Assembly (NCBI RefSeq): GCF_025717675.1
Contig: NZ_JAJIRT010000004.1
Location: 1-64,000, forward strand
Length of the DNA stretch: 64,000 bases
Direction of reading: 5' to 3'
Source of the DNA: Paucibacter sp. DJ2R-2
GTDB taxonomy: Bacteria; Pseudomonadota; Gammaproteobacteria; Burkholderiales; Burkholderiaceae_C
The notes below the pieces were generated by a model. It was not told the DNA's origin and did no database searches. It saw only the letters and a program-made list of their open reading frames with translations. Positions 7,532 to 25,465 of the stretch are shown piece after piece; the first letter of the stretch is position 1; each line of letters starts with the position of its first letter. The position numbers and the translations under genes are program-made.

Positions 7532-9631
7532 CTAGCGCAAGACAGGCAGCTTCTGCGGCTGCAGCTCAATCACGCGCCCCGCCATGGCGATGGTCTCTTG
7601 GCGATGCGCGATCACCACCCGCGTCAGCTGGAGCGCACGGATTGAGTCATTGACCTCCTGCTCGCGCTTGGCATCGAGGTGGCTGGTCGCCTCGTCAAGA
7701 AACAGGATTCGAGGTTGCTTGTACAAGGCGCGCGCCAACAAAAGGCGCTGCTTCTGCCCGCCGGAAATCGCCGCCCCCATGTCGCCGATCAGGGTTTGCC
7801 AAGCCATGGGCATGGCCAGCACATCTTCATCCACGGCCGCCATGCGGGCACACAGTCGCACTCGCTCCATATCGACATCAGCGGCCCCAAACGCGATGTT
7901 CTCAGCGATCGTGCCGGCAAACAGTTGATCGTCCTGCATGACCGCACCGAGACAATCGCGCCAGGCTCGCAGGCCGATGGCCGAGAGCGGCCGACCCATC
8001 ACCAGAATCTCGCCCTCGGTCGGCGTCAGCAGACCCAGCATGATCTTCAGCAGGGTGGTCTTGCCGCAGCCCGAGGGGCCCACAATAGCCACCGACTCGC
8101 CGGCGGCAACGCGAAGACTGATGCCATCCAGCACCCAGGGCTCATTGGCACCGTAGCGGAATCGCACCTCACGCAGTTCGATATCGGGCACGGTCGCTGC
8201 AGGCAGACCACTGCCGCCCGAAAGTTCCGGTTCGCTGAGCACAATGTCAGCCAGTCGCTCACGCTGGATGCGCAGCATGCGCACCTGGAAGGCCAGATCG
8301 ACCAAGGCGCTGATGCGGCCGCTGAACTGCAGCTTGTAGGCGGCATAGGCAAAGCTCATGCCTATGGACAACTCTCCGCGCATCACCAGCTTCGCACCGA
8401 GGTAGATCACCGCGATGTTCTCGACGCCGAACACCAGCGCATTGGCGGATTGGTACAGCGTCGTCAGCCGCTGAGTCGCAAGTTCCCGGTTGCTGGTGTT
8501 GACCAACAGGTTCAGCCAGTGGGCGCGCCGCTCGTCCTCGCGATTGAAAAGCTTGATCGACTGCACGCCGCGCACCGACTCGAGCAGATGGCTGTCTTGA
8601 CGCGCCGCATGAACAATTTGCTCTTCGTTGGCCCGCCGAAATGGCGCATAGGAAAGCACGCGAATCAGCACATAGATGAGCAAGGCGCTCAAGGTCACCA
8701 GCGCCAGCTGGACGCTGTAGACCAACATCATCGCGAAAGCCACGCCGGCCATCAGCCCGTCCAGTGCGGCATTCAAAGCGGCCGCTGTCAGGGTCTGACG
8801 GATGTTTTGAATGGCGCCGAAACGCGACATCACATCGCCCAGATGACGCCGCATGAAGTAGTCCATGGGCAGGCGCAGCAACTTGCTCAGCACACCAGAT
8901 GCCCACTGCAAGTTCAGCTGGGTGGAGAAGTAGATAACCATCCAGCTGCGCATGGTGCTGATCAAGAGCTGCAGCACCATCAGCAGGAAGAAGCCGAGCG
9001 CAAGCACCTGCAACAGATCCATGTCCTGCTGGACGATCACGCCGTCCAGCACCCATTGCTGGAAGAACGGCGTCACCACGGCCAAGAGCTCCAGGGCCAG
9101 GGACAACATCAGCACCTGGGCCAGCGAACGCTTGAGCCCAGTGACTTGCCCGACCAACTGGCCCAAGCCGACTGCCGGCTTGGGCTCGTTGCGCTCGAAG
9201 CTGGGCATGGGCGAGAGCTCCAGCGCCACGCCGGTGAAATGCCGAGAGGCCTCGGCCAGACTCAGCTGGCGCACGCCATAGGCCGGGTCGTGGACCGCGA
9301 GGCGGCGCGCGCCGACCCGGCGCAGCACCACGAAATGGTTCATGTCCCAATGCAAGATGCAAGGCATCTGCAGCTGCCCGAGATCCTCCAGTTCCAACTG
9401 CACCGCCCGCGCTGCGAAACCCAGTTCGTCTGCGAAGCCGATCAGCTGTTTCAGCGTCATGCCCTTGGCCGAGGCCTGGAGACGCTGGCGCAGATCGGGC
9501 AGCTCCTGCCATTGCCCGTGGTAGCTGCTGATCATGGCGAGGCAGGCCAGACCACACTCAGCCGTCTCCGTCTGTTGCACCATGGGCAGACGCGCCCCGA
9601 AGCCGAACTGCAAACCTTGCATCAGGCTCAT
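7532..9631 (-). CDS. lanT: Peptidase-containing ABC exporter (LanT-type, C39 protease)
   Basis: 699 residues in three parts. An N-terminal C39 peptidase (1-130) has Cys26 in AECGLACLAM, His99 in DMNHF and Asp115 in HDPAYG as catalytic triad; this family cuts leaders after GG or GA. A six-helix ABC membrane domain follows. The ATPase domain has Walker A GPSGCGKTT, signature ISGGQKQR, Walker B ILFLDEATS and the AHR switch. It should cleave and export the two precursors encoded upstream in the operon. The ATG at 9631 overlaps the adaptor stop (ATGA), indicating translational coupling; an earlier in-frame start at 9670 would overlap the adaptor by 43 bases and is less likely. Confidence 0.93.
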   Translation of the reverse strand: MSLMQGLQFGFGARLPMVQQTETAECGLACLAMISSYHGQWQELPDLRQRLQASAKGMTLKQLIGFADELGFAARAVQLELEDLGQLQMPCILHWDMNHFVVLRRVGARRLAVHDPAYGVRQLSLAEASRHFTGVALELSPMPSFERNEPKPAVGLGQLVGQVTGLKRSLAQVLMLSLALELLAVVTPFFQQWVLDGVIVQQDMDLLQVLALGFFLLMVLQLLISTMRSWMVIYFSTQLNLQWASGVLSKLLRLPMDYFMRRHLGDVMSRFGAIQNIRQTLTAAALNAALDGLMAGVAFAMMLVYSVQLALVTLSALLIYVLIRVLSYAPFRRANEEQIVHAARQDSHLLESVRGVQSIKLFNREDERRAHWLNLLVNTSNRELATQRLTTLYQSANALVFGVENIAVIYLGAKLVMRGELSIGMSFAYAAYKLQFSGRISALVDLAFQVRMLRIQRERLADIVLSEPELSGGSGLPAATVPDIELREVRFRYGANEPWVLDGISLRVAAGESVAIVGPSGCGKTTLLKIMLGLLTPTEGEILVMGRPLSAIGLRAWRDCLGAVMQDDQLFAGTIAENIAFGAADVDMERVRLCARMAAVDEDVLAMPMAWQTLIGDMGAAISGGQKQRLLLARALYKQPRILFLDEATSHLDAKREQEVNDSIRALQLTRVVIAHRQETIAMAGRVIELQPQKLPVLR

Positions 9632-10860
9632 AGCCGCCCTTTCAGCGCCAACATGGGCTCGAAGATCCATTCGATCAGACGCCGCTCGCTGAGCATCACG
9701 TCGGCCTCCACCTGCATATCGGCTTGCAAGGCCACCGGCTGGCCATAGGCCATCACGGTCTGACTCAAGGGTCGAACCAGCACGCGGTAGCTGCGCTCAC
9801 CCGCACTGCTGCTGCCCACTTGAGCCAGCAGGGCCGCCCGCGAAACCTCCTGCACCACGCCCTCATGCTGGCCAAACTTTTGATACGGGAAGGCCGCATA
9901 GCGCAGGGCCACTTTTTGCCCGGGCCGCACGAAAGCCGCCGCACTTGATGGCAGCTGCAGCTGCGCCTGCAGTGCAGCGCCAGCCGGCAACAAGAGTGCC
10001 AACACCTGGCCGGCCACCACTGTCTGTCCGGCATGGGCCTGCAGCGAGGTCAGCACGCCGTCCACCGGCGCACGCAGCTGCCATTCATGCCGTCCCTGGG
10101 CTTCGGCCAGCTCCTGTTGCAAAGCCGCCAGCTGACGCTCAACCAAAGCTCGTGGGCTGCCATCGCGCAGCCCCTGGGCGCGCAGTTCCGACTCCACGGC
10201 CACCAGCTGCTTGCGAATTTCACGTTCATTGCGTTCCAAGGCAGCCAAGCGAGCCTGCTGATCCAGCACCTCGTCGGCACGCTGCTGCACCTGCAGACCC
10301 GACGCGAAGCCCGTGCCCTGCAAGGCCTCAAAGCGCGCCAGGGCTTCTTGCGCCGACTGAAGGCGGCGCCGCAGCAGCAATTGTTCAGCCTGAGCGCGCG
10401 GCAACTCCGCCATGAGTTCGCGGCGCTTCTGGCGCAAGGCTTCACCCTGGGTGACGGCCAATGCATCCAGGCGAAGCAGCTCAGCCTGCAGGCTGCCACG
10501 CTGCTGCTCCAGGCTGCGCACCGCGCCCTGTGCCAGGTCGCCGGCCTCGGCCGGACGCTCGACACGCAGACGAAACAAGGCCTGGCCCCGGCGCACCGCC
10601 GCGCCCTCGCCCACCAAGGCCTCGGCCACCAATCCCGGCTGCAAAGCGGCGAGGTTGACCAGACCTCGGTCCGGCACCAGATGGCCACTGACCCGAGCTC
10701 GCTGGGTGTAGCTGACGAAAAACAGCATCAGCAACACGCCCAGCCCCAGGGCCAGAGAAGCCATCGAGATCAACCAAAAGCTGCGTGGGCTGCGCAGCAA
10801 AACACGCCCCTGACCATGGCCATGACGCTGATGATCCAAAGCGGCTTGACGGAACTGCAT
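9628..10860 (-). CDS. HlyD-family periplasmic adaptor of the lanthipeptide exporter
   Basis: 410 residues: a cytoplasmic N-terminus, one transmembrane helix at about 28-50 (SLALGLGVLLMLFFV), a first lipoyl half, a long coiled-coil hairpin rich in Gln, Ala and Arg, and a second lipoyl/beta-barrel part. Such adaptors link an inner-membrane ABC exporter to a TolC channel, as in Gram-negative microcin secretion. No TolC gene is in the window, so a shared one is likely used. The ATG at 10860 has GGAG 8 bases upstream; a TTG at 10884 is the only upstream alternative. The stop overlaps the exporter start. Confidence 0.9.
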   Translation of the reverse strand: MQFRQAALDHQRHGHGQGRVLLRSPRSFWLISMASLALGLGVLLMLFFVSYTQRARVSGHLVPDRGLVNLAALQPGLVAEALVGEGAAVRRGQALFRLRVERPAEAGDLAQGAVRSLEQQRGSLQAELLRLDALAVTQGEALRQKRRELMAELPRAQAEQLLLRRRLQSAQEALARFEALQGTGFASGLQVQQRADEVLDQQARLAALERNEREIRKQLVAVESELRAQGLRDGSPRALVERQLAALQQELAEAQGRHEWQLRAPVDGVLTSLQAHAGQTVVAGQVLALLLPAGAALQAQLQLPSSAAAFVRPGQKVALRYAAFPYQKFGQHEGVVQEVSRAALLAQVGSSSAGERSYRVLVRPLSQTVMAYGQPVALQADMQVEADVMLSERRLIEWIFEPMLALKGRL

Positions 10861-10885
10861 GCGAATCACTCCGGCAAGGTTCAAA

Positions 10886-10911
10886 GCCCGAAAGGACAGA
10901 ACCTTTCGGGC
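10886..10911 (-). terminator. Attenuator-like hairpin between precursor and export genes
   Basis: Perfect 10-bp inverted repeat GCCCGAAAGG/CCTTTCGGGC with a 6-base loop, followed in the minus direction by only TTTG. It lies 57 bases after the first precursor's stop and 25 bases before the adaptor start. A weak terminator here would let precursors be made in excess over exporter, as in other lantibiotic operons. It may also protect the upstream mRNA end. Confidence 0.55.
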
Positions 10912-10968
10912 CGACCTCGCAGGTCCGGGGCGACTCAGCGCCGCCGCCGGACCCGCGCGATCAGGGCT

Positions 10969-11247
10969 TCAGCACAGATCGCTGTTGGCGCCACCACAAC
11001 GCGGCGTGCGGGACGCCGGCGGGCAGGCATTGCTGACGCAATTCGCGCTGGCCGGCGGGCAGCCCTGCGTCTGTGGCACGCCGGTTGGGCAGCCAGTCGC
11101 GGCATTGACCGTGATGCAGGGGCGGTTGGTCGGATCGTCGCCACAGGCAGCGATCGAGGTGTAGCCGCCAGCCACATCGCTGAGCTCGGCTTGGCTGAGC
11201 TGACGCACCGAGGTGGTGGCCAGATGGAGTTTGTCGATTTTCTTCAT
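10969..11247 (-). CDS. lanA1: Lanthipeptide precursor peptide 1
   Basis: 92 residues, not a family I can name. The leader (1-28) begins MKKIDKLHLATTSVRQLS and ends SDVAGG, a double-glycine site for the C39 exporter. The 64-residue core has 8 Cys (35, 44, 53, 63, 70, 75, 84, 92) and 12 Ser/Thr, enough for several lanthionine rings, and is rich in Pro, Gly and Asn with no Trp. TQGCPP and SNACPP follow a [ST]-x-x-C-P-P pattern shared with precursor 2. The leader is nearly the same as that of precursor 2, so both are likely substrates of the upstream LanB and LanC. Activity is unknown. Confidence 0.85.
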   Translation of the reverse strand: MKKIDKLHLATTSVRQLSQAELSDVAGGYTSIAACGDDPTNRPCITVNAATGCPTGVPQTQGCPPASANCVSNACPPASRTPRCGGANSDLC

Positions 11248-11336
11248 GGTCTTGATGGGATTGCTTGTTGAGCGGCCGGCTGGCCGCCCGGGTTACAGGT
11301 CGCCAAGGCAGGCCTCGTCAAGAGACCCGCACTCAC

Positions 11337-11588
11337 TCACACGCACCAGCCTTTGGTGGCCCAAGGTGGGCAAGCCGTCGTGTGCGCCGGAGGGCAGGTG
11401 GCCGAGACCGGCGGCGGGCAGGTGTTGGTCCGGCACGGATCGTTGCTCGGGCACGGGCCGCAGTAGGCGTTGGACAGCGAGGTGTTGCCCGTCGGGCCGC
11501 CATCAGCGCCGACCACCTGGTCGACTTCGGCGGGCGACAGACTGCGCACCGAGGTGGTGCTCAGCTTCAGTCGATCTGATTTGCTCAT
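11337..11588 (-). CDS. lanA2: Lanthipeptide precursor peptide 2
   Basis: 83 residues. The start at 11588 has AAGGA 6 bases upstream and begins a leader, MSKSDRLKLSTTSVRSLS, collinear with that of precursor 1; the frame is open further upstream to 11777 without such support. Alignment puts VVGA (25-28) opposite VAGG, so cleavage after Ala28 is likely; a GG at 30-31 is the alternative. The core has 7 Cys (43, 46, 52, 57, 65, 73, 82) and 12 Ser/Thr, with TNTCPP, SATCPP and TTACPP repeating the [ST]-x-x-C-P-P pattern. Two Trp (76 and 81) lie near the C-terminus. Confidence 0.85.
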   Translation of the reverse strand: MSKSDRLKLSTTSVRSLSPAEVDQVVGADGGPTGNTSLSNAYCGPCPSNDPCRTNTCPPPVSATCPPAHTTACPPWATKGWCV

Positions 11589-11773: not shown

Positions 11774-13030
11774 TCAAGTCATTGCTGTGTCTGGCTCAGC
11801 CACGGCCGGGTCCCACGCTCGGGCGTCACCGATCCACAAAGCCCTTTGGCCGGCCAGAAAGGGCAGGCTCCAGGGCAGCGCCAATGGACCGCTGCCTTGC
11901 TCCGCGAGGACCAGGGCAAGACCGGCATAGCCCTCCAGCAGACTGAGATTGGGGTCAGGATCCTGTTCCAGCAGCGTCAACAGACCGGCTTCACCGTCCA
12001 GCGGATGACACTGCTCGAAGCGGCCCGCCAACTCCTCTTGGCCCGGCGCCAGCTGGCGCAGCAACCAGGCTGAACCCACGCTGCCATGGCAGAGCCAGGC
12101 GTCGACAAAGCCCAGGCCCAACAAGGGCCGCTGGCTCAGGGTCTGCAGCAGGCGCTGGGCCCAGGCTTCCAGCGCGGGTTCGTCGAGGGCCAAGGCGGAC
12201 AGTTGCAAGGCCGCCGCCGTGCCCAGATCGCCATAGCACCAGGCGCAGCGGGTCAAGCCCGGGGCTTCGACCGCGGCGCCGAAATGTGAGCGCCCGTCTT
12301 GTGACTCATGACGGCGCAGGTGGCGCAGTGCGCCATGCAGCAAACCTCGCGCTTCGCCCTGTCCGCTGCGGCCACTGGCCAGTGCAAAAGCCAATGCCGC
12401 CAGCACACCCGCCTGGCCGTGGGCCAGGCCCAGATCGGTACAGCCGGTCGGATGCGCGTCACCCATGGGAAAGCCGCGAATCCAGGCCGGCGGGGTGAAC
12501 CAGAAGACTTCCTCGCCGGCCGCGGTCTGAACACGCGTAGCCCGGCTGCTCAGCCGGGCCAGACAGGCTGCGACCAAAGGCAACCGGCTGCCCTGGCGCT
12601 CACGGTAGGCGGCATAGACGAGCAAACCGGCGAGGCCGCTGATGACGTCAAAGTGCTCGGGCAGATCGCGGTCATGTCGCAAACCGTCCAGAAGATGCTC
12701 GTCGGCCTCTTGGGCCGCATCCTCGGCCATGCCCAAGCCGTAAGCCCGGTCCAACTCCAGAGCTGCGAAAAGCAGGCCTTGAGCACCCTGGAACAGTCCG
12801 TGCGGATAGCGCGGCAGCAACTCCAGCAAACGCATCAACGCCTCGGCCATCCAATCGGCTGCGATGCGTGTATCGGGCGCCGCGCGCGCGTCCAGGGCGG
12901 CCAGGCAAAGCAGCTGACCGGCGGCGCCGCAGGCATAGCTGGCATCCGTCCAGGGCTGTTCCAGTCGCTGCAGCAGGCGCGTCCGCAGGGCTGCGATCAG
13001 CCGCCCTGATGGGCTCGCTTCGGCCTTCAT
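11774..13030 (-). CDS. lanC: Lanthionine synthetase C-like cyclase
   Basis: 418 residues, the size of NisC-type cyclases, which add Cys thiols to dehydrated Ser/Thr to close (methyl)lanthionine rings. The zinc ligands are visible: Cys265 in CAWCYGDLG and Cys314-His315 in LCHGSVG. Other family motifs are LAHGQAG (202-208), the GLF/GAQG segment near 78-85 and the final LLEGYAGLALVL (364-375). The ATG overlaps the stop of the dehydratase gene (ATGA), so the two are translationally coupled. All the catalytic residues I know are present. Confidence 0.93.
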   Translation of the reverse strand: MKAEASPSGRLIAALRTRLLQRLEQPWTDASYACGAAGQLLCLAALDARAAPDTRIAADWMAEALMRLLELLPRYPHGLFQGAQGLLFAALELDRAYGLGMAEDAAQEADEHLLDGLRHDRDLPEHFDVISGLAGLLVYAAYRERQGSRLPLVAACLARLSSRATRVQTAAGEEVFWFTPPAWIRGFPMGDAHPTGCTDLGLAHGQAGVLAALAFALASGRSGQGEARGLLHGALRHLRRHESQDGRSHFGAAVEAPGLTRCAWCYGDLGTAAALQLSALALDEPALEAWAQRLLQTLSQRPLLGLGFVDAWLCHGSVGSAWLLRQLAPGQEELAGRFEQCHPLDGEAGLLTLLEQDPDPNLSLLEGYAGLALVLAEQGSGPLALPWSLPFLAGQRALWIGDARAWDPAVAEPDTAMT

Positions 13031-16000
13031 GCATCGCTCCCTTGCGCCACAGGACGACGCGCCTGACGGGCCCGTTCCAGGCGACGGGCAAAGTCATACA
13101 GCAGGGTCTCGTGGCGGCGTGGCTCGCTCGGCGCCAGCCGGTTGCAATGCATATGGAGCAGGCTGTGCATCACGCTCTCACGCTGCACCTCGGGTAGAGC
13201 CGACAAGTGCACATTCAGCTCAGCCAAGAGCGCCAGCCGGCGCGGCTCACTGCGCTGCAGCTGCTGCTGCCAGGCGCCCAGGTGGCCCTGGCCCCTCTGC
13301 AAACCCTCCAGCTCACGGCGGAACTCGCGGAAGCGTGCGCCGATGGCCACGAGAGCGGCCGAGCGGCCACTGGCACCGGATTGTTCTTCCAGGAACTGAC
13401 GAGACAAGGTGTCGAGCAGTGCTTCGCGCTGCTGCGGTTCCGGGCTCAGCAATCGGGCATAGGCATCGACCGAGGCCAGAGCGAACAGCCAGCGCGGCGG
13501 AGCACCGTCCGGGTCGGTCTCGGTCGCGGCAGCCTCCAGATCGAGCAGGGCCAGAGCATCGTCGGAATCGATGGCGAACAGCTGCTCGCACAGCCGCAGG
13601 CCATGCGGGCCGCCATAGCGCTGCGACTCCGGTAGGTAGTCGTCGCCCTGCACGCGCCAGAGCAGGCCCGCACGCTGAGCGTCGGCCAAGCACGCCAGCA
13701 ATTGCTCGTGCGCCAGGATCAAGGCCGCGCGATCTCGGCCTTGCAGACGCAAGCGCAGGTGCTCGAAACTGTCCTGATAGCGGACGAAGAACCACGTCTT
13801 GATCAGCCCTTGCATCTGCAACTGACGCAAGCAGGGCGCCACCCATTCGCGCAACACCCGGTCGGCATAACCGGCACCGGTGTAGAGGCGCAGATAGACC
13901 CAGTCCTCCAAGATTGGGCGGCGTTCACCCTCGCCCTGCAGACCGGCACGTTCCGGGTTCCAAGGCTGGGCACGGCGGGTCTTCGCTTGCCGCGGCCGGC
14001 GCAGCGGCAGCACCCATTCCTGGCTGCGCTGGCCAAACTCCTGCTGCGCAGCCGCCGTGTTCAGGGCCAGGCATTCATGCAAGGCCACTTGCGGCAATTT
14101 GATGATGTCATCGAGCAGCAGGCTGACCGAAGCCGGGTTGTCCAAATCCACCGGCAGATGGTTGTCGTGCTGATCCCAGGTGACAAAGCGGGGCAAATTC
14201 AGAGCCTCTCGCCAGGCGCTCAAGCCACCTTCCACCACGGCTTGATTCAAGGCCGCGATCTGCTTGGCATCAAGCAGGCAGCGTGCTCGCGCGAGGATCA
14301 CACCCTCGAACTCCAAGCGTGGCAGCCACGGCAGGTGTTGGACAGCGGCCGGCCAGGCAAAGCCCAGCCAGGGCCCGTCCTCATCCTGCAATCCAGCCAA
14401 AAACTCGTAGGCGCCAAGCTGGCGCGCATGGTAGTTGTGGGCGCTGCTGAGGCGCGGGATGACCCGGCGCCCACTGCGCAGTTCACGCAGCACAAATCGA
14501 TCACCGAGCAGCTGAATGCTCAGATCCGAGAGCCACAGCTGCTGCTCGCGCGGCCGGTCGCTGCTGCCCGCGAACACCAATTCGTGGCTGGCCAGCGAGG
14601 GCCGCCGCAGGATGTTGAGCAGGCGATCCTGCGGGTGGTGGATCAGCTCCGCGTAAATGCAGTCGGGGTTCTCGTCACGATGTTCGCGGGCGTAGTGGGA
14701 GGCGGCCTCGCTGAGCTCGGGGCTCAGGTGGCAGAAACGAGCGATCAGCTCCAGGCCATTGCGCCCACCCATGCCGCGCAACTCGAACTGTGGTGCCTGG
14801 CCAGGCGCCGTCGGCAACACGCCCAACTGGGCGTAAACGCCCTCAGGCAGGCTCAAGGACGCGGGTTCGCCCAGGCTTTGCAAATCCGCACGCGACAGGG
14901 TGATGCAAGCAGCACCCGGCCCCTGGGCAAACAGGCGGCTCAGCACCAGGCGCTCGAAGGCCAGCAGCGGTGCTTGCACGGCGCCGCCTTCGCCGGGACT
15001 TGCACCACCCAGGCGCAAGCCCTGCAGCAGTGGCGAAGCCAGGGCACCACGGTTCGGATAAGCAAGGCCCAGCTCCGGATGCAGGGCGAAGGCGAGATTG
15101 ACCTCGCGATCCTCGAAACGCTCGCGGAACAAGCGCTTGTAGTCCTGCTGCACCGACGAGGGCCTTGCCGTGTGGCGCATCAGCAGTTGCAAGCGCTGCA
15201 CCAGATCGGCGGCCAGAGCCGGGGCGACCCGGGCCGGGCGCGCATCCAAGGTGTCGATCTGCAGCACGCCGCGACTGAGATCCTCCGGGCCGATCTGACC
15301 CTCGATCGTGGCCCGCAAGGCCTGATAGGCCCCGACCAGTGAGGCCGAGCTGTCCGCCTGCGCACGCAGCTCGTGCAGCTGCCGCTGGATCTGGCGCAAG
15401 GGCAGCAGGGCAGGATGGTCCGGCGACTGGGCCAGCGCCTGGTCCAGGCTGCAGGCATTGCTGGCCGTCGGCGCCAGCAGGGGCAGGATCAAACGGCGCT
15501 CGATCAGCTGATGCAGAAACTCAGCGGCATCGTCGGCGTCGACCTCCAAGCCTAAAGCGAGCTCCTCCCGCAGATCGGCAAAGCTGCGCGGCGACTGAGC
15601 CAGCCGCTGCAAAAGCGCCAGTGCTTCGCTGTGAGCCAGTTCTACGGCCCGATAGCTGCGCTGACGATTGGCCTGGTACACCCAGTCGACGTAACTCAGG
15701 TGGGCACCGCAGCGGAAGGCCGTGTTGCTGAACTGCCAACGCAGGGCTTCCCGCCAGCTCCGGTCTTGCAAGGCCGCATCGATCAGCCAAGCCTCGACGC
15801 CGCTGTCCAGATGAATACCCCGGCGCAGCGCCGGCGCGGCAGGGCCGGAATCGGCGAGCCCGGCCACCTCGGTGCTGATGCGAGCCAGTTGCACCTGAGC
15901 AAACAGGCCAAACGGCGTGCAGCGATAGGCCGCTCGGCTCACGAAGCGAGCCAGGCTGGCGATCAGCTTCTTGCGTTCGCTGGCACTTCGGCTGACATCG

Positions 16001-16203: not shown

Positions 16204-16305
16204 GGTCTCCCTCCGGCGAATTCGCTCGGTTGCTGGGGTCCATGCCCAAGGGCCGGACCCATCCAGGGCGGCTCAGGGCGCAGACGCGGAACTGCAAAGC
16301 TGTAC

Positions 16306-16537: not shown

Positions 16538-16555
16538 AATACCAATTTAATACCC
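16538..16555 (-). promoter_or_regulatory. NagQ-like operator upstream of the lanthipeptide operon
   Basis: Minus strand GGGTATT-AAAT-TGGTATT, one mismatch from TGGTATT-N4-TGGTATT and sharing AAAYTGGTATT with the nag promoter site at 25448. It lies 335 bases before LanB and points the same way as both operons. Two sites this good would be rare by chance (about 0.02 expected in the window on both strands at equal base composition). Function is inferred. Confidence 0.55.
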
Positions 16556-17714: not shown

Positions 17715-17805
17715 CGCGGCCCGCCCTTTCCATCGCATGCAAACAAGAACACAGATTCACTCGACCCAAGAAGCGAACTCGGGCGAACGGTCACGGCGAC
17801 CGGAA

Positions 17806-18726
17806 TCAGAAATCACACAAGCTGCTCAAGGCCGGCTCGGCCGCCGGCACTGTGTCCAACTGGGCCACGCCGCCGGCGCGCAAACGCTTGACTTCTGCGT
17901 CCACCTCGGCCGGGCTCAGCACCTTGTTGCGGGCATGAAAGACCCAGTCCACATCTTGCTCGTACGCACGTGCCTGGCTGCTGGCCGGCAGCAAGCCACC
18001 GGGCGAGAACCAGAGGTTGAAGTTGATGGACATCAGCGAGACCGGGTAATTGCGTCCGCCATGCGTGGCCAGCTGCCGGCCATCGAGGAAGAGCTTGACC
18101 TGACCGCCCGAGACCTGCATCAAGAGCTGATGCCAGCCGTTCAGGTTCGTGAACTCTTCGTGCGACTGGTTGTAGCTCTTCCAGGGCTCGAGCTGCACAG
18201 TCTGCCAGGCAATGCCATAGAGCCGCGTCTTCTCGCTGCCCCAGCCGCCGTTGGGCAGGTACTCCCAGTCGATCTCGCTGAACTCGGGGTCGAAGTCATG
18301 GCGCAAGGGCGCCACCACATAAAAGGTCTGGATCACCGGGTCGCCATCGACGCCGCGCACGGGCGCATCGCTGAAGCGCAGGCGGGCCGCATACGTGCCT
18401 TCCAGATACTTGCGTTGGTGGCAGATCTGGGCCTGCGCCGTGCCGGCGCCATTGCCGTCGGTGTGTGCGGCCAGACGCAGCAGGCGGTTACCGGCTTGCT
18501 GCGGATCATCGACCAGGCTCAGCTGCTCGGCGCTCCAGCGCGCACCCGTCACGCCCGGGTGGCCCGCTTTGCTGCGTGGCGTCCAACCTTGGGCCCAGAG
18601 GCCACTCAGTTCGCGGTAGCTGAAGTCATCGAAGAACAGGCCGCCAGGCGCAGGGCTGGCGGCCTGTGCCTGAACCGCGAGCAAACCCGCCACAACACCG
18701 GCCAGACCAAGAAAGAACCCGCGCAT
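17806..18726 (-). CDS. Secreted GH16-like glycoside hydrolase/concanavalin-fold protein
   Basis: 306 residues with a signal peptide (MRGFFLGLAGVVAGLLAVQA, cut near 22). Residues 147-160 hold DPEFSEIDWEYLPNG: Glu151, Asp153 and Glu155 match the ExDxE catalytic signature of GH16, though with EIDWE rather than the commonest EIDIE. GH16 enzymes cut beta-glucans, agars and related polymers; a GlcNAc-containing polymer would fit the operon but is inference. The chosen start leaves 4 bases after the MFS stop and starts the signal peptide; an in-frame start at 18759 would overlap the MFS gene. Confidence 0.75.
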   Translation of the reverse strand: MRGFFLGLAGVVAGLLAVQAQAASPAPGGLFFDDFSYRELSGLWAQGWTPRSKAGHPGVTGARWSAEQLSLVDDPQQAGNRLLRLAAHTDGNGAGTAQAQICHQRKYLEGTYAARLRFSDAPVRGVDGDPVIQTFYVVAPLRHDFDPEFSEIDWEYLPNGGWGSEKTRLYGIAWQTVQLEPWKSYNQSHEEFTNLNGWHQLLMQVSGGQVKLFLDGRQLATHGGRNYPVSLMSINFNLWFSPGGLLPASSQARAYEQDVDWVFHARNKVLSPAEVDAEVKRLRAGGVAQLDTVPAAEPALSSLCDF

Positions 18727-18730
18727 GACC

Positions 18731-20053
18731 TCAGCGGCTCGCAGCTGGAGCGGCATCACCCGCCGCTGGGGCAGCCTCTGCCGTTTGCGCGCCCGGGATC
18801 TTCACGAAGAACATCAGAACCAAGGCCGGTACGCCGCAAGCAATCGTCCAGAGGAAAAAGCTCTGGTAGCCCATGGCCACCTGGATATCGCCGCTGATGG
18901 TCTTGGAAAAAATGAAACCGAGTTGCATGACGCCAGAGCCGAGCGCGTAATGCGCGGTCTGGAACTTGCCCGGCGCGACCGCCTGCATGATGTAGAGAAT
19001 CATGCCGACAAAACCGAAGCCATAACCGAACATCTCCACGGCCACGGCCGCGCTGATGTGGAACATGTCCTGCGGCAGGCTCACGCTGAGGTAGTAGAAG
19101 GTCACATTGGGCACAGCCATCATCAAGATCAGCACCGGCATGGCGCGCTTGAGACTCAGCCAAGACGTGAAGTAACCACCCAGGATGGAGCCGACCAGAA
19201 AAGCGGCCGTCCCCACCGTGCCGTAAACGCCGCCAATCTGTTCGGTACTCAGCCCCAAGCCGCCCTTGTCGCGCGCTTCAATCAGGAACAGCGGCCCGAT
19301 GGTCTGCACCTGCCCCTCGGCAAAGCGGAACAGCACGATGAACAAAATCGCCAGCCAGATGCCAGGCTTGCGCAGGAAGTCGCCGATCACCTCGCGCAAG
19401 GTACGTGCCACACCCGCGGCACTGATGTCGGCCGTCTCGGTGTTCAAGGTGCCGGGCAAGGCATAGGCGTTGTAAGCGGCCAGCAGCGCCAGCAGCACCG
19501 CCAGCAAGACAAAGATGATGGACCAGGCGTTGAAAACGCCGTAGCGGGTTTCCAGATGCCCGGCCAGAACCAACAAGCCGCCCAAGGTCAGGAACTTGGA
19601 GGCATTGAAGAAGGCGCCCTGCCATCCCGCATAGGCGGCCTGCGACTTGGCATCGAGCGCGGCCATATAGAGCCCGTCACAGGCGATGTCGTGGGTGGCC
19701 GAGGCATACGCGAGCACGAAGAGCACGCCGATGGAGGCCGCAAACCACATCGGCAACTGCAAGGCCAGCGCCATCAGGCCGAGGCCAGCGGCACCGGTGA
19801 ACTGCATGGCCACGACGATCAGCTTCTTGCTGCGAGCCAACTCCAGGAACGGGCTCCACAAGGGCTTGATCGCCCAGGCCAGTCCCAGCAAGCCGGTCCA
19901 GCGGGCGATCTGGTCGTTGGGCACGCCCATGTTCTTGAACATCAGGCCGGCAATCAGCATGACGACAAAGAACTGCATGCCCTGCACAAAGTACAGGCTG
20001 GGAATCCATCGGATCGGGGAACGCCCTGCCGCGGCTGACGACTCTTGGCTCAT
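18731..20053 (-). CDS. MFS transporter, AmpG-like, of the GlcNAc operon
   Basis: 440 residues with about 12 hydrophobic helices. The N-terminal part (SLYFVQGMQFFVVMLIAGLM, then WSPFLE and DIACDG) resembles AmpG-type permeases, which import GlcNAc-anhydromuropeptides or disaccharides. Between NagZ-type hexosaminidase and secreted GH16-like genes, it is probably the inner-membrane importer for chitobiose or GlcNAc saccharides. No PTS or ABC importer is in the operon. The start at 20053 has GAGGAG 8 bases upstream; the upstream ATG at 20068 has none. Confidence 0.85.
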   Translation of the reverse strand: MSQESSAAAGRSPIRWIPSLYFVQGMQFFVVMLIAGLMFKNMGVPNDQIARWTGLLGLAWAIKPLWSPFLELARSKKLIVVAMQFTGAAGLGLMALALQLPMWFAASIGVLFVLAYASATHDIACDGLYMAALDAKSQAAYAGWQGAFFNASKFLTLGGLLVLAGHLETRYGVFNAWSIIFVLLAVLLALLAAYNAYALPGTLNTETADISAAGVARTLREVIGDFLRKPGIWLAILFIVLFRFAEGQVQTIGPLFLIEARDKGGLGLSTEQIGGVYGTVGTAAFLVGSILGGYFTSWLSLKRAMPVLILMMAVPNVTFYYLSVSLPQDMFHISAAVAVEMFGYGFGFVGMILYIMQAVAPGKFQTAHYALGSGVMQLGFIFSKTISGDIQVAMGYQSFFLWTIACGVPALVLMFFVKIPGAQTAEAAPAAGDAAPAASR

Positions 20054-20101
20054 GGCCGGTCTCCTCATGTGTTGTTCTCAGGCTATCAAGGCGCGCCGGA
20101 C

Positions 20102-21580
20102 TCAGGCATCCAGTTGCACAGGCGAAACGGCAACGGCCACATGCTCGCCCTGCAACCATGCCTGCAGGCCGGCCAGAGCGCCATCGGCATAACCCCAGCT
20201 CACCACGGTCGGACCCGGCACATCCAGGGCCTGGAAGGGATTCCAGAGCACCAAGTGCAGATCGGGCGTCCAGGCGCGGGCGTTCTGGCCGTAGCGCATG
20301 CGGTGGGTCGAGGCAACGATGTTCAGGCGTCCGTCCTGCGGTACCGTGGCCCAGTCCAGGGCCAGGATGTCATCGACGAATTCGATCTGGGCATTCGGGA
20401 AGGCGCGGAACAGCTCGACGATCTGCGCGCCCGAGGGGCCGGCTTCCGAGACGCCATCGGTCGGCACTTCGGGTTGCACGTAGACGCGCAGCGCTGCATC
20501 GCGAGCCGGCGGCGTGGCGCCGCGCAAGGCGGTCAGGCCGGCAGCCCAGGCCTGGCGCATCAGGCGGTCGTCGGCGGCACGCGGCTCGCCTTGGTAGTCG
20601 TCGTGGCGCACCGGGTAGGCGGCGGCCAACTTGTCCAGGCGGGCGGCGGCGATGCGGCCCTGCTCCAGCGTCAGCTCGCCGCGCTCGAAGGCGTCTTTCA
20701 AGGCTTGGATGGACCGGCCCTGCTCTTCCAGGTCACCCTGGGCCAGGATCATGTCGGCGCCGGCCTGGATGGCCATCACGGCGGCGCGGGCGTAGCCGTA
20801 GCGCTCGAAGATGGCCTTCATCATCAGCGCGTCGGTGATGACCACGCCGTCGTAGCCCCACTCGCGGCGCAGGATGTCGCCCAGGATCTTGGTCGACAAG
20901 GTGGCCGGGTGATCGGGGTCGATCTGCGGGTAGACGATGTGGGCGGTCATCACGGCCGGCGCAGCGTCGCGCAAGGCCTTGAAGGGGCGCAGCTCCAGCG
21001 CGTCCAGCTCGGCGCGGCTCTTGTCCACCGTCGGCAGGGCCAGGTGCGAGTCCACATGGGTGTCGCCGTGGCCGGGGAAATGCTTGACGCAGCAGGCCAC
21101 GCCTTCGCGCAGCGAACCGGCCATCCAGGCGCCGGCCAAACGGGTCACATCATCGGCATCTTCGGAGAAGCTGCGCTCGGCGATCACCGGGTTGGCCGGG
21201 TTGTTGTTGATGTCCAGCACCGGCGCGAAGTTCCAGTTCACACCGATCGAGGCCAGGCCGCGTGCGACCGCGGCGCCGACCTTCTCGGCCAGGGCCGCAT
21301 CATCGGCCGCGCCCAGGGCCATGGCCGAAGGCGCTTGCGGCAGGAAGGTGGCGCGCACCACCGAACCGCCTTCCTGGTCGAGGCCGATCAAGGCGCCGGG
21401 GCCCATCACCTCGCGCAGATCGCGGGTCAGCTGGCGCACTTCGGCTTCGGTGCCCAGGTTCTTGCGGAACAGGCAGACGGCGCGCACCTGGTTGGCGCGC
21501 AGGAACTCGGCGGTGGCCGCGTCCAGGGACTTGCCCTGGATGTCGACCATCACCAGCTGGCCGGGATGAAAAGCAGTCAT
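20102..21580 (-). CDS. nagZ: Beta-N-acetylhexosaminidase, GH3 (NagZ-like)
   Basis: 492 residues, longer than the roughly 340 of E. coli NagZ because of a C-terminal extension after about 330. The GH3 hexosaminidase motif KHFPGHGDTHVDSH spans 166-179, including the Asp177/His179 acid-base dyad, and Asp250 in VITDALMM is the likely nucleophile. No signal peptide, so it acts in the cytoplasm, releasing GlcNAc from imported chitobiose or muropeptides. It follows the SIS deaminase gene by 15 bases. Confidence 0.92.
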   Translation of the reverse strand: MTAFHPGQLVMVDIQGKSLDAATAEFLRANQVRAVCLFRKNLGTEAEVRQLTRDLREVMGPGALIGLDQEGGSVVRATFLPQAPSAMALGAADDAALAEKVGAAVARGLASIGVNWNFAPVLDINNNPANPVIAERSFSEDADDVTRLAGAWMAGSLREGVACCVKHFPGHGDTHVDSHLALPTVDKSRAELDALELRPFKALRDAAPAVMTAHIVYPQIDPDHPATLSTKILGDILRREWGYDGVVITDALMMKAIFERYGYARAAVMAIQAGADMILAQGDLEEQGRSIQALKDAFERGELTLEQGRIAAARLDKLAAAYPVRHDDYQGEPRAADDRLMRQAWAAGLTALRGATPPARDAALRVYVQPEVPTDGVSEAGPSGAQIVELFRAFPNAQIEFVDDILALDWATVPQDGRLNIVASTHRMRYGQNARAWTPDLHLVLWNPFQALDVPGPTVVSWGYADGALAGLQAWLQGEHVAVAVSPVQLDA

Positions 21581-21595: not shown

Positions 21596-22639
21596 TCAGT
21601 TCGTCTTGGTGACCTTGGCCAGATGCGGCGGCGCATCCGGGTTGCGGCCGCGGGCGCGGGCCAGGGCTTCCACCATGGGGTAGAAGCTCTGCACCACGGC
21701 GATCGGGTCCAGGTCTTCATTGCCGGTGCAGGCCAGGGGCAGCTCGGCGCCGGGCGTACCCACCGGCGCGGCCAGCAGCACGCGGGCACCACGGCCGCGC
21801 ATTTCCTCGGCCAGAGCGATCAAGCCGGCCTGGGCCGGGCCACGCGGTGCGAACACCAGCATGGGGTAGCCCTCGTCCACCAAGGCCATGGGGCCGTGCT
21901 TGACCTCGGCGCCCGAGAAGGCCTCGGCCTGGATGCCGCAGGTTTCTTTGAACTTCAGCGCCGCTTCCATCGCGATGGGCAGGCCCGTGCCACGGCCGAT
22001 GACGAAGAGCTTGTCTGCGTCCTTGAGCACGTCGACGGCCACATCCCAGCGCTGCTTGGCGGCCTCTTCGAGGGCCGAGGGCAGCTGTTGCAAGGCAGCC
22101 TGCAGGTCTTCATCACCGCTCCAGGCGGCCACCACGCGGGCGCCGGCCACCAGCTGGGCGATATAGCTCTTGGTGGCGGCCACGCTCAGCTCGGGGCCCG
22201 AGCGCAGCGGGAACACGAATTGCGCGGCATCGGCCAGAGGCGAGCTCTCGGCGTTGACGAAGGCCACGGTGCGGGCACCGCCTTCACGGAAGAATTTCGT
22301 CGGTGCGACCAGATCGGGGCTTTGGCCCGATTGCGAGAAGGCCAGGGACACCAGGCCATCGCAGACAATCTTGCTTTGGTACAGCGTTACCAGCGACATC
22401 GGCAACGAAGTCACCAGGCGGCCCATGCGCGCCATCATCAGATAGGCCATGTAGTGGGCAGCGTGGTCCGAGCTGCCACGGGCCACGGTCAGCAGGGCCG
22501 TGGGCGGCTGCTCGCGCAGGGCCTCGCCGAGCTCGGCGTAGGCATTCTGGTCATGGGCCAGCTGGTTCGCGACAGCGGCGGGGGCACTCAGGGCTTCTTG
22601 CAACATGCGCGAGGCATGCACCAACTCAGGCGAGGTCAA
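21596..22639 (-). CDS. nagB-II: SIS-domain glucosamine-6-phosphate deaminase (NagB-II type)
   Basis: 347 residues made of two SIS domains and lacking the glutaminase half of GlmS. Motifs TVARGSSDHAA, SGPELSVAATKSY, GRGTGLPIAMEAALKFKE and EVKHGPMAL match the GlmS isomerase fold. In nag operons this protein converts GlcN6P to fructose-6-phosphate and ammonia, replacing classic NagB, which is absent here. I place the start at TTG 22639 because AAGGAG lies 6 bases upstream; it overlaps the nagA stop by 14 bases. ATG 22606 is the alternative. Confidence 0.88.
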   Translation of the reverse strand: MTSPELVHASRMLQEALSAPAAVANQLAHDQNAYAELGEALREQPPTALLTVARGSSDHAAHYMAYLMMARMGRLVTSLPMSLVTLYQSKIVCDGLVSLAFSQSGQSPDLVAPTKFFREGGARTVAFVNAESSPLADAAQFVFPLRSGPELSVAATKSYIAQLVAGARVVAAWSGDEDLQAALQQLPSALEEAAKQRWDVAVDVLKDADKLFVIGRGTGLPIAMEAALKFKETCGIQAEAFSGAEVKHGPMALVDEGYPMLVFAPRGPAQAGLIALAEEMRGRGARVLLAAPVGTPGAELPLACTGNEDLDPIAVVQSFYPMVEALARARGRNPDAPPHLAKVTKTN

Positions 22640-23756
22640 TTTCTTCTCCTTCAACGACCACGCCTTGCAACTGCAAATCACGGTCCAGTACAACAAAATC
22701 CGCCCAAGCACCAGGCTGCAGGCGACCGCGATCTTCCAAACCCATGTAGTCGGCCGCAAAGGTCGACACGCGCCGCGAGGCGTCTTCAATCTCCAGGCCC
22801 AGGCCGACCAGATTGCGCAAGGCCTGATCCATGGTCAGGGTGCTGCCGGCCAGGGTGCCATCGGGCAGGCGCACGCCGCCCATGCACTTGGTCACGCGGT
22901 GGCGGCCCAAGCTGTATTCGCCATCGGGCATGCCGGCCGCGGCCGTGGAATCGGTGACGCAGAACATGCACGGGATCGAGCGCATGGCCACGCGGATGGC
23001 ACCGGGGTGCACATGCAGCAGGTCGGGAATGATCTCGGCGTACTTTGCGTGAGCCAAGGCGGCGCCCACCATGCCGGGCTCGCGGTGGTGCAGGCCGGAC
23101 ATGGCATTGAACAGATGGGTGAAGCCGCCTGCTCCATGAGCCAGGGCCTGCACGCCGTCTTCGTAGGTGCCGGCGGTGTGGCCGATCTGCACCTGGAAGC
23201 CTTCGGCGCGCAGCTCGCTGATTAGCTCCAGCGTGCCGGGCAGTTCCGGCGCCAGCGTGATCAAACGGATCGGCGCCAGCGCATGCAGGGCGTGGATCTC
23301 GGCCAACGTGGCCGGCTTGGCAAAGTCGGGCTGGGCGCCGAGCTTGCCGGGATTGATGTAGGGGCCTTCCAGGTGCACGCCGAGCAGGCGGGCCGAACCC
23401 GGTGCGCGCTGAGCGCAAAACGGGCCGAGGGCGCTGAGCGCCGAGCGGATCTCGTCCAGCGGCGCCGTCATGGTGGTGGCCAGCATGGAGGTCGTGCCGT
23501 GGCGCACATGCAAACGCGCGATTTCACCGGCGGCGTTGCCGCCTTCCATGGTGTCGTGGCCGCCACCGCCATGGACATGCACATCGATGAAGCCAGGCAG
23601 CACGATCTTGCGCGCGCCGGCATCGTGCCGGACCTGGCTTTCTGTGACCGGGCTGCCGTGGATGGCGCTCACGCGCCCTTCCGCGTATTCCAGTCGACCC
23701 CGTACAAAGCCTTGCGGCGTGAGGATGTCTGCGTCGATGTGCTGTACTGGGGTCAT
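22626..23756 (-). CDS. nagA: N-acetylglucosamine-6-phosphate deacetylase
   Basis: 376 residues of the amidohydrolase fold; removes acetate from GlcNAc6P. Metal and catalytic residues visible: His60 and His62 in DVHVHGGGG, Glu130 in HLEGPY, His193 in IGHTAG, His214 in THLFNAMS, and Asp269 in VTDS. The start at 23756 leaves 7 bases after the regulator stop, with AGGCGAAGG just ahead; an open frame to 23792 overlaps the regulator and is not preferred. The enzyme feeds the following SIS deaminase. Confidence 0.95.
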   Translation of the reverse strand: MTPVQHIDADILTPQGFVRGRLEYAEGRVSAIHGSPVTESQVRHDAGARKIVLPGFIDVHVHGGGGHDTMEGGNAAGEIARLHVRHGTTSMLATTMTAPLDEIRSALSALGPFCAQRAPGSARLLGVHLEGPYINPGKLGAQPDFAKPATLAEIHALHALAPIRLITLAPELPGTLELISELRAEGFQVQIGHTAGTYEDGVQALAHGAGGFTHLFNAMSGLHHREPGMVGAALAHAKYAEIIPDLLHVHPGAIRVAMRSIPCMFCVTDSTAAAGMPDGEYSLGRHRVTKCMGGVRLPDGTLAGSTLTMDQALRNLVGLGLEIEDASRRVSTFAADYMGLEDRGRLQPGAWADFVVLDRDLQLQGVVVEGEEIDLA

Positions 23757-23763
23757 CCTTCGC

Positions 23764-24501
23764 CTATCCCTCGCGCCGCATCTCGGCGACAAAGTCGTAG
23801 TAATCGCTGCGGCAGTAGGAATGCGTCAGCTCGACGGCATGACCCGATTCCAGATAGCCCACACGGGTGATGAACAAGACGGCCTGCCCCACCGGCACTT
23901 CCAGCAGGCTGGCGAGCTTGGTGTCGGCATTGATGGCACGGATGTGCTGCAGCGCACGCACCGGGGCACCGCCGAGCTTGGCCAGGTGTTCATACAAAGA
24001 AGCTTGCACCGCGGCCGGGTCCGGCAAGACCGTCTCAGGCAGCACGCTGACCTCATAGGCCATGACCACGGTGTCGGCCAGGCGCAAGCGCTCCAGGCGC
24101 GCCACGCGCTCGCCGGTGGACAGGCCCAGGCTCAGCTGCTCGTCCGGCGCGGCCGGCGTGAAGCTGCGGGTCAGCCAGCGCGAGCTGGGCTTGAAGCCGC
24201 GTTGCTGCAGCTCTTCCGAGAAGCTGGTCAGGCGCGAGAGCGGCTGCTCCAGCTTGGGCGCGATGTAGTTGCCCGAGCCGCGCTTGCGGATGATCAGGCC
24301 TTGCTCCACCAGGCGGTCGATGGCCTTGCGCGCGGTCACGCGCGACAGGTCCAGCGACTCCGACAGCACCCGCTCCGAAGGCAGCGCCTCGTCGGCGTGG
24401 TAGACCCCTTCGCGGATGGCCTGCGCCAGCTTGTGGGCCAGCTGCATGTACAGCGGCGAAGCGGCGTCCGGATCGGGCTTGAATTGAAATGCGATGCTCA
24501 T
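23764..24501 (-). CDS. nagQ: GntR/HutC-family regulator of GlcNAc genes (NagR/NagQ-like)
   Basis: 245 residues: an N-terminal winged helix (SPLYMQLAHKLAQAIREGVY, LPSERVLSESLDLSRVTARK, RGSGNYI) and a C-terminal UTRA ligand domain, as in NagR and DasR, which sense GlcN6P or GlcNAc6P. By position it should repress its own operon through the direct-repeat sites at 25448 and 25563, and perhaps the lanthipeptide genes. The start at 24501 has GAGG 8 bases upstream. The symbol nagQ is used because the sites resemble the Xanthomonas NagQ box as I recall it. Confidence 0.9.
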   Translation of the reverse strand: MSIAFQFKPDPDAASPLYMQLAHKLAQAIREGVYHADEALPSERVLSESLDLSRVTARKAIDRLVEQGLIIRKRGSGNYIAPKLEQPLSRLTSFSEELQQRGFKPSSRWLTRSFTPAAPDEQLSLGLSTGERVARLERLRLADTVVMAYEVSVLPETVLPDPAAVQASLYEHLAKLGGAPVRALQHIRAINADTKLASLLEVPVGQAVLFITRVGYLESGHAVELTHSYCRSDYYDFVAEMRREG

Positions 24502-24511
24502 CACGAAATCC

Positions 24512-25444
24512 TCAGCGTTGCAGTGCGCTGCGCACCAGGTGCAGCGCACCCTCGGCCGAGTCACCTCGAGGTGACACGCAGCGGGCACGAATGGTGCCTG
24601 AGAATTCGGAACTCAAACGCACAGCGATGCTGCCGCACAGCGCCAGAGGCAGTTCAGATTGAGGATCCAGGGCGTGGGCGAGGCGTTCCAGCTCGCTCAC
24701 GGCGTCGGCCACAAAGCCCGCCGCCACCGGATCGTTCGGGGCGTGATCAAAGACCAGCGGGGCCAGGCTGGCATAACCATGCTGGCCGGCGGCAGCGCAC
24801 CAGGCCAGGATGGTGGCGCGGTCCTGACCGGCCACAGCCCAGACGGCACGGGCCAGCGCACCAGGCTCGGCGCGGCCGTCCAAGGCCTGCTGGGCGTGGC
24901 GCATGGCCTTCAGGCCCAACCAGGCGCCGCTGCCCTCGTCACCGCAAACCCAGCCCCAGCCACTGATGTAGACACGCTCGCCATTGCGGCGCAGGCCTTC
25001 ACCGACGGTGCCGGTACCGGCCGCGACCACTGCGCCGGGTTCGCCGCCATGGGCGCCCAGCAAGGTCGTGAAACCGTCGTTGTCCAAGGCCACCAGGGCA
25101 TAGCCGGGCTGCAGGGCAGAGAAGGCCTCGACCTGCGCCTCCACGCCCGTGCCTGACAGGCCCAGACCGATGGCGCAACGCGAAAGGTCCAGCTCACCCA
25201 GGCCCGCTTGTGCTGCCGCCGCTTGCACGGCCTGCTGGATGTGGCGCCAGGCTTGCTCCGCGCCTTGTCCCAGGGCCGAGGGGCCGGACTCGCCTTGCCC
25301 CAAAAGCACACCGGCCCGGTCGCTCAGGCGCACGCGGGTGCCGGTGCCGCCGCCGTCCACCCCGATCAGGTAGAGCACCGCCGCCGAAAGATCGGAAGCT
25401 GTGGCGCCCTGGAGGGCGGGTGAACGAAGGATGACCGTTTTCAT
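24512..25444 (-). CDS. nagK: N-acetylglucosamine kinase, BadF/BadG ATPase family (NagK-like)
   Basis: 310 residues of the ASKHA/BadF-BadG-BcrA-BcrD fold. The first phosphate motif GVDGGGTGTRVRL is at 28-40, a second phosphate/adenosine region AAGTGTVGEG lies near 150, and GWGWVCGDEGSG is typical of eukaryote-like GlcNAc kinases. It should phosphorylate imported GlcNAc to GlcNAc6P, the substrate of NagA and likely inducer of the regulator. First gene of the nag operon; ATG 25444 lies only 4 bases from the operator, leaving a very short leader with no strong ribosome-binding site. Confidence 0.88.
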   Translation of the reverse strand: MKTVILRSPALQGATASDLSAAVLYLIGVDGGGTGTRVRLSDRAGVLLGQGESGPSALGQGAEQAWRHIQQAVQAAAAQAGLGELDLSRCAIGLGLSGTGVEAQVEAFSALQPGYALVALDNDGFTTLLGAHGGEPGAVVAAGTGTVGEGLRRNGERVYISGWGWVCGDEGSGAWLGLKAMRHAQQALDGRAEPGALARAVWAVAGQDRATILAWCAAAGQHGYASLAPLVFDHAPNDPVAAGFVADAVSELERLAHALDPQSELPLALCGSIAVRLSSEFSGTIRARCVSPRGDSAEGALHLVRSALQR

Positions 25445-25447
25445 ATT

Positions 25448-25465
25448 AATACCAGTTTAGTACCA
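25448..25465 (-). promoter_or_regulatory. NagQ-like operator at the nag operon promoter
   Basis: Minus strand TGGTACT-AAAC-TGGTATT, one mismatch from a direct repeat of TGGTATT with 4-base spacing. A -35 candidate TTGACG lies at 25478-25483, and the matching -10 (TAAACT, 18-base spacer) falls inside the site, so bound repressor would block RNA polymerase. Confidence 0.7.

Follow-up and report, generated by a model that had tools for sequence, protein, structure and literature searches.

A candidate NagQ operator ahead of a class I lanthipeptide operon probably ties it to N-acetylglucosamine use in Paucibacter sp. DJ2R-2 and a few relatives

Do genes for a modified peptide that lie behind those for the use of N-acetylglucosamine (GlcNAc) answer to the same regulator? 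The question is raised by a 64,000-nucleotide stretch of Paucibacter sp. DJ2R-2, a member of the Burkholderiales (contig NZ_JAJIRT010000004.1, positions 1 to 64,000; the window), in which an operon for a class I lanthipeptide (lan) lies on the minus strand about 440 bp downstream of the operon for GlcNAc use (nag). A sequence-only reading of this DNA had claimed that a six-gene lan locus lies directly behind an eight-gene nag operon on the same strand, that both carry the same direct repeat with one mismatch each, and that a GntR/HutC regulator is encoded in the nag operon. Domain annotation agrees with the arrangement, a pattern scan places both repeats on the minus strand, each a single mismatch away from the pattern, and the regulator gene (23764-24588) encodes GntR and UTRA domains. 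From the sequence we propose, with a probability of roughly 0.8, that the lan operon belongs to the regulon of this GntR/HutC protein, NagQ, and is repressed until GlcNAc-phosphate accumulates. Because the lan genes share a DNA switch with the genes for GlcNAc use, a modified peptide is probably made in a few chitin-eating Burkholderiales when GlcNAc is present. The sites and operons concerned are the following, with scores from the matrix described below:

16538..16555, minus strand: predicted NagQ operator ahead of lan, GGGTATT-AAAT-TGGTATT (GGGTATTAAATTGGTATT), 1 mismatch, 25.6 bits
25448..25465, minus strand: predicted NagQ operator at the nag promoter, TGGTACTAAACTGGTATT, 1 mismatch, 30.8 bits
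25563..25580, minus strand: second, distal predicted NagQ operator of nag, about 115 bp upstream of the first, 28.3 bits
844..861, minus strand: predicted NagQ operator ahead of a TonB-dependent receptor, 21.5 bits
5768..5785, plus strand: predicted NagQ operator between a halogenase and an FGE-domain gene, 23.6 bits
16506..16523, minus strand: weak partial repeat TGGACTC-TTCC-TGGTATT, downstream of the lan box, 3 mismatches, 10.6 bits
16644-25444, minus strand: nag operon, eight genes, gene content from Pfam domains
7532-16203, minus strand: lan operon, six genes (lanB, lanC, lanA2, lanA1, hlyD, lanT)

At up to three mismatches, TGGTATT-N4-TGGTATT occurs six times in the window against 0.54 expected, and none of 100 shuffles reached six. 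The scoring matrix was built from 30 hand-picked boxes (14 distinct sequences; 19 adjoining nagK and 11 distal) of 19 relatives that lack lan genes; weaker and reverse sites, loci L076-L080, the window's own genome and the lan-bearing genome G044 were excluded. In the window it ranks the two nag sites first (30.8 and 28.3 bits), then the lan box (25.6 bits) and the sites at 23.6 and 21.5 bits, with the next best at only 13.8 bits. First-order Markov resampling of the 441-bp nag-lan gap gave a maximum of 18.0 bits, and none of 2000 sequences reached 25.6 bits. Judged by its sequence, the partial repeat at 16506 is probably no operator on its own.

A tandem-repeat motif is described for NagQ, which occurs in alpha-, beta- and some gammaproteobacteria (PMC5343134), and NagQ binds TGGTATT direct repeats (PMC4494728). 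The described regulon of Proteobacteria resembles the window in its GntR/HutC regulator, its link to GlcNAc use and its TGGTATT direct repeats (PMC4494728, PMC5343134). Its targets are nag and, in many genomes, chitin genes, and it differs in that the available text of these two papers names no lanthipeptide cluster among them. The sequence-only reading had given the Xanthomonas NagQ box as two imperfect TGGTATT copies 4 bp apart; the repeats are borne out by PMC4494728, and the spacing is kept in the nag promoters of the relatives. When the nagK loci of relatives were scanned over their entire length and not just at promoters, 25 of 29 had a site at up to three mismatches, 23 had one with at most one mismatch and four had none. 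The distal nag site likewise has a similar copy in many relatives, not in all. In the window, the nag box overlaps the sole sigma-70-like match found at the nag promoter.

The nearest solved structure to the nag-encoded GntR/UTRA protein is that of B. subtilis YvoA/NagR (1.8e-36), followed by the regulator of structure 2ra5 and then DasR (2e-23). Since the genome encodes three further UTRA proteins, the assignment as NagQ leans on operon context and motif. DasR of Streptomyces and NagR/YvoA of Bacillus are HutC-type proteins homologous to the window's NagQ. Both are GlcNAc-sensing repressors with palindromic dre sites as operators, and DasR ties GlcNAc to antibiotic synthesis. Unlike with DasR, the operator here is a direct repeat, the predicted target is a class I lanthipeptide operon and the host is Gram-negative.

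The lan box recurs in the related lan loci. LanB is 71% identical to that of the window in Pelomonas BJYL3 (L031), in a Rubrivivax metagenome-assembled genome (MAG; L033) and in Mitsuaria WAJ17 (L034), and 53% identical in Janthinobacterium CG3 (L032); ten distant relatives stand at 23-32%. All five distinct loci whose LanB reaches 53% identity or more, the window included, carry the box, with 25.6 bits in the window, Pelomonas and Mitsuaria, 21.8 bits in Janthinobacterium and 21.0 bits in Rubrivivax (L046 and L123 duplicate L033, L047 and L117 duplicate L034, and each was counted once). Four of the five adjoin nag. In Pelomonas, Rubrivivax and Mitsuaria the lan genes lie behind nagX and the box is one of three copies phased at 11 bp; the window has two. 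None of 12 loci with a distant LanB (23-34%; ten from the LanB search plus L124 and L129) has the box. Their best score over the whole locus is 17.3 bits, which is the fair figure because the start of a partial LanB match differs from the LanB start; ten of them were also scanned over the 800 bp before the LanB match and reached no more than 12.0 bits there. LanB relatives are rare, being encoded in three of 148 related genomes (G000, G002 and G044, the window's own among them) and in none of the 19 matrix genomes. Among 399 genomes of the order a further search found two that encode one, the window's own included, and within the genus Janthinobacterium two of 40 genomes, one being a 34% relative without the box. 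On the strength of the shuffles, the matrix scores and the conservation, we reject a chance origin of the repeat.

Across the 5.8-Mb genome, the pattern at up to three mismatches has 90 matches, of which nine score 21 bits or more; for the genome nine is a lower bound, as only matches with up to three pattern mismatches were taken in. The number expected is 0.2, from an order-3 Markov model for which about 128 kb of this genome served as training sequence. Seven of these nine lie at nag (two), at lan, at two TonB receptors, at a tonB-like/exbB pair and at a GbpA-type lytic polysaccharide monooxygenase (LPMO). The second TonB receptor, on contig C41, is followed by a halogenase and has its box about 230 bp upstream. 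On contig C44 the tonB-like gene is followed by exbB, and the box stands just beyond the end of another receptor gene. At the GbpA-domain LPMO on contig C1 (L135:2855-2894), several NagQ half-sites phased at 11 bp lie about 60 bp before the probable start. The remaining two sites have less certain roles: one is that at the halogenase and FGE gene, and the other, a predicted NagQ box of 24.7 bits on contig C5 (L134:2889-2906), stands about 50 bp before the probable start of a secreted FAD/BBE-domain oxidase. To guess from its domain, this enzyme is possibly a chito-oligosaccharide oxidase that gives the LPMO its peroxide. The site ahead of the window's TonB receptor has a comparable counterpart in L031, L034, L107, L110-L114, L118 and L119, and the halogenase of L031 and L034 has a site comparable to that at 5768-5785; L108 and L109 have no site of 14 bits or more before the receptor. 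The placement of the high-scoring sites outlines a regulon for GlcNAc, TonB-dependent uptake and one chitin LPMO, not for the chitinases examined. The clustering that the sequence-only reading had proposed to look for thus holds for nag, TonB-receptor and lan genes and fails for the chitinases of glycoside hydrolase family 18 (GH18), which were rejected as NagQ targets since no strong site was found in the DNA examined around them. The next-ranked sites of the genome, at 20.0 and 18.8 bits, lie upstream of PEP-CTERM proteins. The sole perfect TGGTATT-N4-TGGTATT in the genome (L001:1501-1518, C29:176771), with 18.8 bits, directly precedes a PEP-CTERM protein.

The box is also better conserved than its surroundings: in an alignment of the window, Pelomonas, Rubrivivax and Mitsuaria, 14 of its 18 columns do not vary, whereas in the ungapped flanks only 14 of 202 are constant. 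Several observations weigh against membership of lan in the NagQ regulon. This contrast exaggerates the divergence of the flanks, as a gapped comparison of the more distant pairs still gives 45-50% identity upstream. Pelomonas and Mitsuaria are closely related (366 of 531 aligned upstream bases are identical), which leaves about three or four lineages as independent. The Janthinobacterium box is reversed and lies between lanB and a divergent gene; its lanB seems frameshifted, with matches in two frames near the 3' end (12800-13125), and its LanA is short, which would reflect either decay of the cluster or sequencing error. A search near the lan box found no sigma-70 consensus promoter. The distance from box to lanB start is 189-334 bp across the loci, and 334 bp to the ATG in the window, which implies a long lan leader; Rfam at gathering thresholds finds no RNA element in it, its only matches in the window being three tRNAs. 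In the genome-wide set, the tonB-like gene, which matches no Pfam family and was called by eye, has its box about 375 bp upstream, and pattern and matrix find no strong box in the DNA examined around the three GH18 chitinases. Finally, read-through from nag might contribute to lan expression. In its full form this explanation makes lan the last part of the nag transcript; the internal box would then be secondary, and the peptide would still be induced by GlcNAc. The lan genes indeed lie directly downstream of nag on the same strand, in four of the five distinct lan loci the two adjoin, and no terminator-like hairpin was found in 16150-16750. However, the gap holds a conserved operator, a halogenase with a box of its own separates nagX from lanB in Pelomonas and Mitsuaria, and Janthinobacterium has the box although no nag gene was detected within its 23-kb locus. 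We consider read-through unlikely to be the main route.

Control of lan through its own NagQ operator also raises the question of how the box came to lie there. Beside lan lie these three genes of the window:

935..3808, plus strand: TonB-dependent receptor of the Xanthomonas/Caulobacter type (TIGR01782, 600 bits)
3902..5434, minus strand: Trp_halogenase-family protein of the nag/TonB locus (PF04820)
6027..7322, plus strand: FGE-sulfatase-domain protein (PF03781)

Among 14 lan-less loci that extend past nagX, a homolog of the TonB receptor occurs in 13, the halogenase in eight and the FGE gene in five, and between nagX and the following gene none has a site that reaches 14 bits, which argues that the box arrived with lan. 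Genes for tRNA-Tyr, tRNA-Gly and tRNA-Thr lie beyond the block in all six lan-less loci examined, and those for tRNA-Tyr and tRNA-Gly in Pelomonas and Mitsuaria. For the nearest relative, G011, identity to the window is 93-98% in the nag genes but only 55-64% in the FGE, halogenase and TonB-receptor genes, and lan is absent; in the Rubrivivax MAG nagX is 95% but lanB 71% identical. This near-unchanged nag beside a diverged block suggests, as far as sequences can tell, that the lan-FGE-halogenase-TonB block (window 1-16600), box included, has been swapped as a cassette between a stable nag operon and the tRNA cluster. Such an exchange admits a different view of the lan box, as real but idle, a relic or bystander of a cassette assembled by recombination beside nag, and the variation of the block as a unit next to an almost unchanged nag operon fits it. 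The missing site at this place in the 14 lan-less loci and the better conservation of the box than of its flanks speak against it, and it is the least probable of the explanations we considered. The halogenase and FGE gene, tried as lanthipeptide tailoring enzymes, were rejected as such, as their homologs adjoin nag in the lan-less relatives; they probably belong to the nag/TonB locus, while their alleles appear to travel with lan.

Three of the relatives have a second element. A palindrome, CTGTMAG-NN-CTKACAG (CTGTAAGNNCTGACAG), lies about 70 bp upstream of the lan box in Pelomonas (L031:9635), Rubrivivax (L033:880) and Mitsuaria (L034:9636), and we take it to be a lux box, from its likeness to the lux-box consensus and from its LuxR-gene context. 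The window's genome has four occurrences (the reversed control has none). Three of them precede a LuxR-type gene, an M14 peptidase and an alpha/beta hydrolase; the fourth stands at the 5' end of the longest open reading frame of a GH19 chitinase, where it probably lies ahead of the true chitinase start. LuxI-type synthases are encoded in the window's genome and in Pelomonas, Mitsuaria and Janthinobacterium; none was found in G011 or in the incomplete Rubrivivax MAG, in which no LuxR-type protein was found either. The palindrome suggests quorum control of lan in the three relatives. The lan genes might then be chiefly under other control, such as LuxR-type quorum sensing, with a small effect of GlcNAc, and the palindromes upstream of the three lan boxes, at the LuxR-type gene and at the GH19 chitinase favor this. 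The lan promoter of the window, on the other hand, lacks the palindrome (the best match has five mismatches), and it is the NagQ box that is common to all five lan loci. As the chief control, quorum sensing is thus very improbable.

The genes that NagQ would govern in the two operons, all on the minus strand, are as follows, first those of nag:

24512..25444, minus strand: nagK, BadF-type amino-sugar kinase (BcrAD_BadFG)
23764..24588, minus strand: nagQ, GntR/HutC regulator (GntR and UTRA)
22626..23792, minus strand: nagA, putative GlcNAc-6-phosphate deacetylase (Amidohydro_1)
21596..22789, minus strand: putative nagB-II type SIS-domain deaminase (SIS)
20102..21580, minus strand: GH3 glycosidase, probably a beta-N-acetylglucosaminidase (Glyco_hydro_3)
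18731..20068, minus strand: major facilitator superfamily transporter related to AmpG (MFS_1; under the AmpG cut-off)
17806..18759, minus strand: 317-aa protein, no Pfam or NCBIfam match, conserved among relatives
16644..17738, minus strand: nagX, HGSNAT-like membrane protein, final nag gene (HGSNAT_cat)
13027..16203, minus strand: lanB, full-length class I lanthipeptide dehydratase, 1058 aa (Lant_dehydr_N, PF04738; Lant_dehydr_C, PF14028)
11774..13030, minus strand: lanC, cyclase (LANC_like, PF05147; WCYG and CHG motifs read from the translation)
11337..11588, minus strand: lanA2, precursor of 83 aa with a double-glycine (GG) leader; 52-aa core with 7 Cys and 12 Ser/Thr, GG cleavage assumed
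10969..11247, minus strand: lanA1, precursor of 92 aa with a GG leader; 64-aa core with 8 Cys and 12 Ser/Thr, GG cleavage assumed
9628..10884, minus strand: HlyD-family adaptor (HlyD_3); the reading frame begins with TTG and the true start may be later
7532..9670, minus strand: lanT, ABC exporter with a C39 leader peptidase (Peptidase_C39, ABC_membrane, ABC_tran)

The annotated ATG of nagK lies only 3 bp past its box, so that the true start is probably about 20 codons later; alignments of nagK homologs begin at residue 15-24 in most and at residue 5-13 in four. The gene content is that of a class I lanthipeptide cluster: a two-domain LanB, a LanC whose WCYG and CHG motifs presumably hold the zinc ligands, and precursors with a leader and a core of Ser, Thr and Cys. 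The leaders of LanA1 and LanA2 have the form LxLxTTSVRxL and end in GG, and the TIGR04149 GG-leader domain is recognized in LanA1 barely above the cut-off. Neither precursor matches a Pfam family, and LanA2 matches no NCBIfam family. Pelomonas and Mitsuaria carry a third precursor. The window, Pelomonas, Rubrivivax and Mitsuaria agree in every residue over the first third of the LanA2 core, PTGNTSLSNAYCGPCPSN, which suggests a conserved target. By eye, with no dedicated search, no nisin-type lipid II motif was seen in the precursors, and no immunity gene stands out among the annotated genes, no search having been aimed at one.

Class I precursors of Bacteroidetes have LxLxKx5L leaders, GG ends and C39 proteases (PMC7268733). 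The window's peptides resemble this type, which includes the antifungal pinensin, in leader spacing (with Thr for Lys), GG end and C39 exporter, and the window's LanB is 27% identical to a LanB of Chitinophaga. Unlike the split pinensin LanB (PMC7268733), the LanB here is a single protein of 1058 aa, and the host belongs to the Burkholderiales. That the lan product acts against fungi is a guess from lifestyle.

The sequence-only reading knew of no described example of such control in a Gram-negative. Chitin stimulates andrimid (PMC5209532) and holomycin (PMC4359443) in marine vibrios, which are likewise Gram-negative and make more antibiotic on chitin. The biosynthetic classes differ there, andrimid being a nonribosomal peptide synthetase/polyketide synthase product, and the regulators proposed are of the LysR or ArsR type and linked to the cluster, with no GlcNAc repressor involved (PMC5209532). 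In a quorum-signal mutant of Lysobacter, GlcNAc affects lysochelin through catabolism (PMC13153030). Among the matches listed from the open-licence literature, no report connects a lanthipeptide with NagQ or with any GlcNAc repressor. Chitin or GlcNAc as a stimulus of antibiotics is therefore not new for Gram-negatives, and in that broad form the claim needs to be narrowed; as far as the literature searched shows, the link of a defined repressor and operator to a lanthipeptide is new.

The operator, its conservation, the gene content and the predicted regulon were obtained by computation, and on them we base the following mechanism. When the amino sugar is absent, NagQ would sit on the repeat at 16538-16555 and block the lan promoter, as at nag. 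During chitin breakdown, GlcNAc and chito-oligosaccharides would enter through the TonB receptor and the inner-membrane permease, the GH3 enzyme would cleave the imported sugars and NagK would phosphorylate them. GlcNAc-6-phosphate or glucosamine-6-phosphate would then release NagQ, and lan would be transcribed along with the genes for uptake and catabolism. LanB and LanC would modify LanA1 and LanA2, which LanT and the HlyD adaptor would cut at the GG and export. In this scheme we infer that the window's own NagQ binds the site, what the effector is, that NagQ represses and does not activate, how the sugars are taken up and what the product is.

If this is true, a defined repressor and its operator would tie a Gram-negative lanthipeptide to a nutrient signal, a link of the kind that DasR provides in Streptomyces, and a biosynthetic cluster would join a regulon that the available text of PMC4494728 and PMC5343134 describes as catabolic. 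Feeding with GlcNAc or chitin would be a simple switch for a probably silent cluster, and the ecological role of the peptide would be hinted at. We tentatively speculate, as a possibility of rather low probability, that the peptide is a weapon of chitin feeding: NagQ derepression and, in the three relatives, quorum sensing would time a two- or three-component lanthipeptide with the LPMO and chitinases, so that attacks on fungi or on competing chitin-eaters are confined to times when the cells feed in a crowd. If true, a Gram-negative's lanthipeptide would be under two-input control that involves a catabolic repressor.

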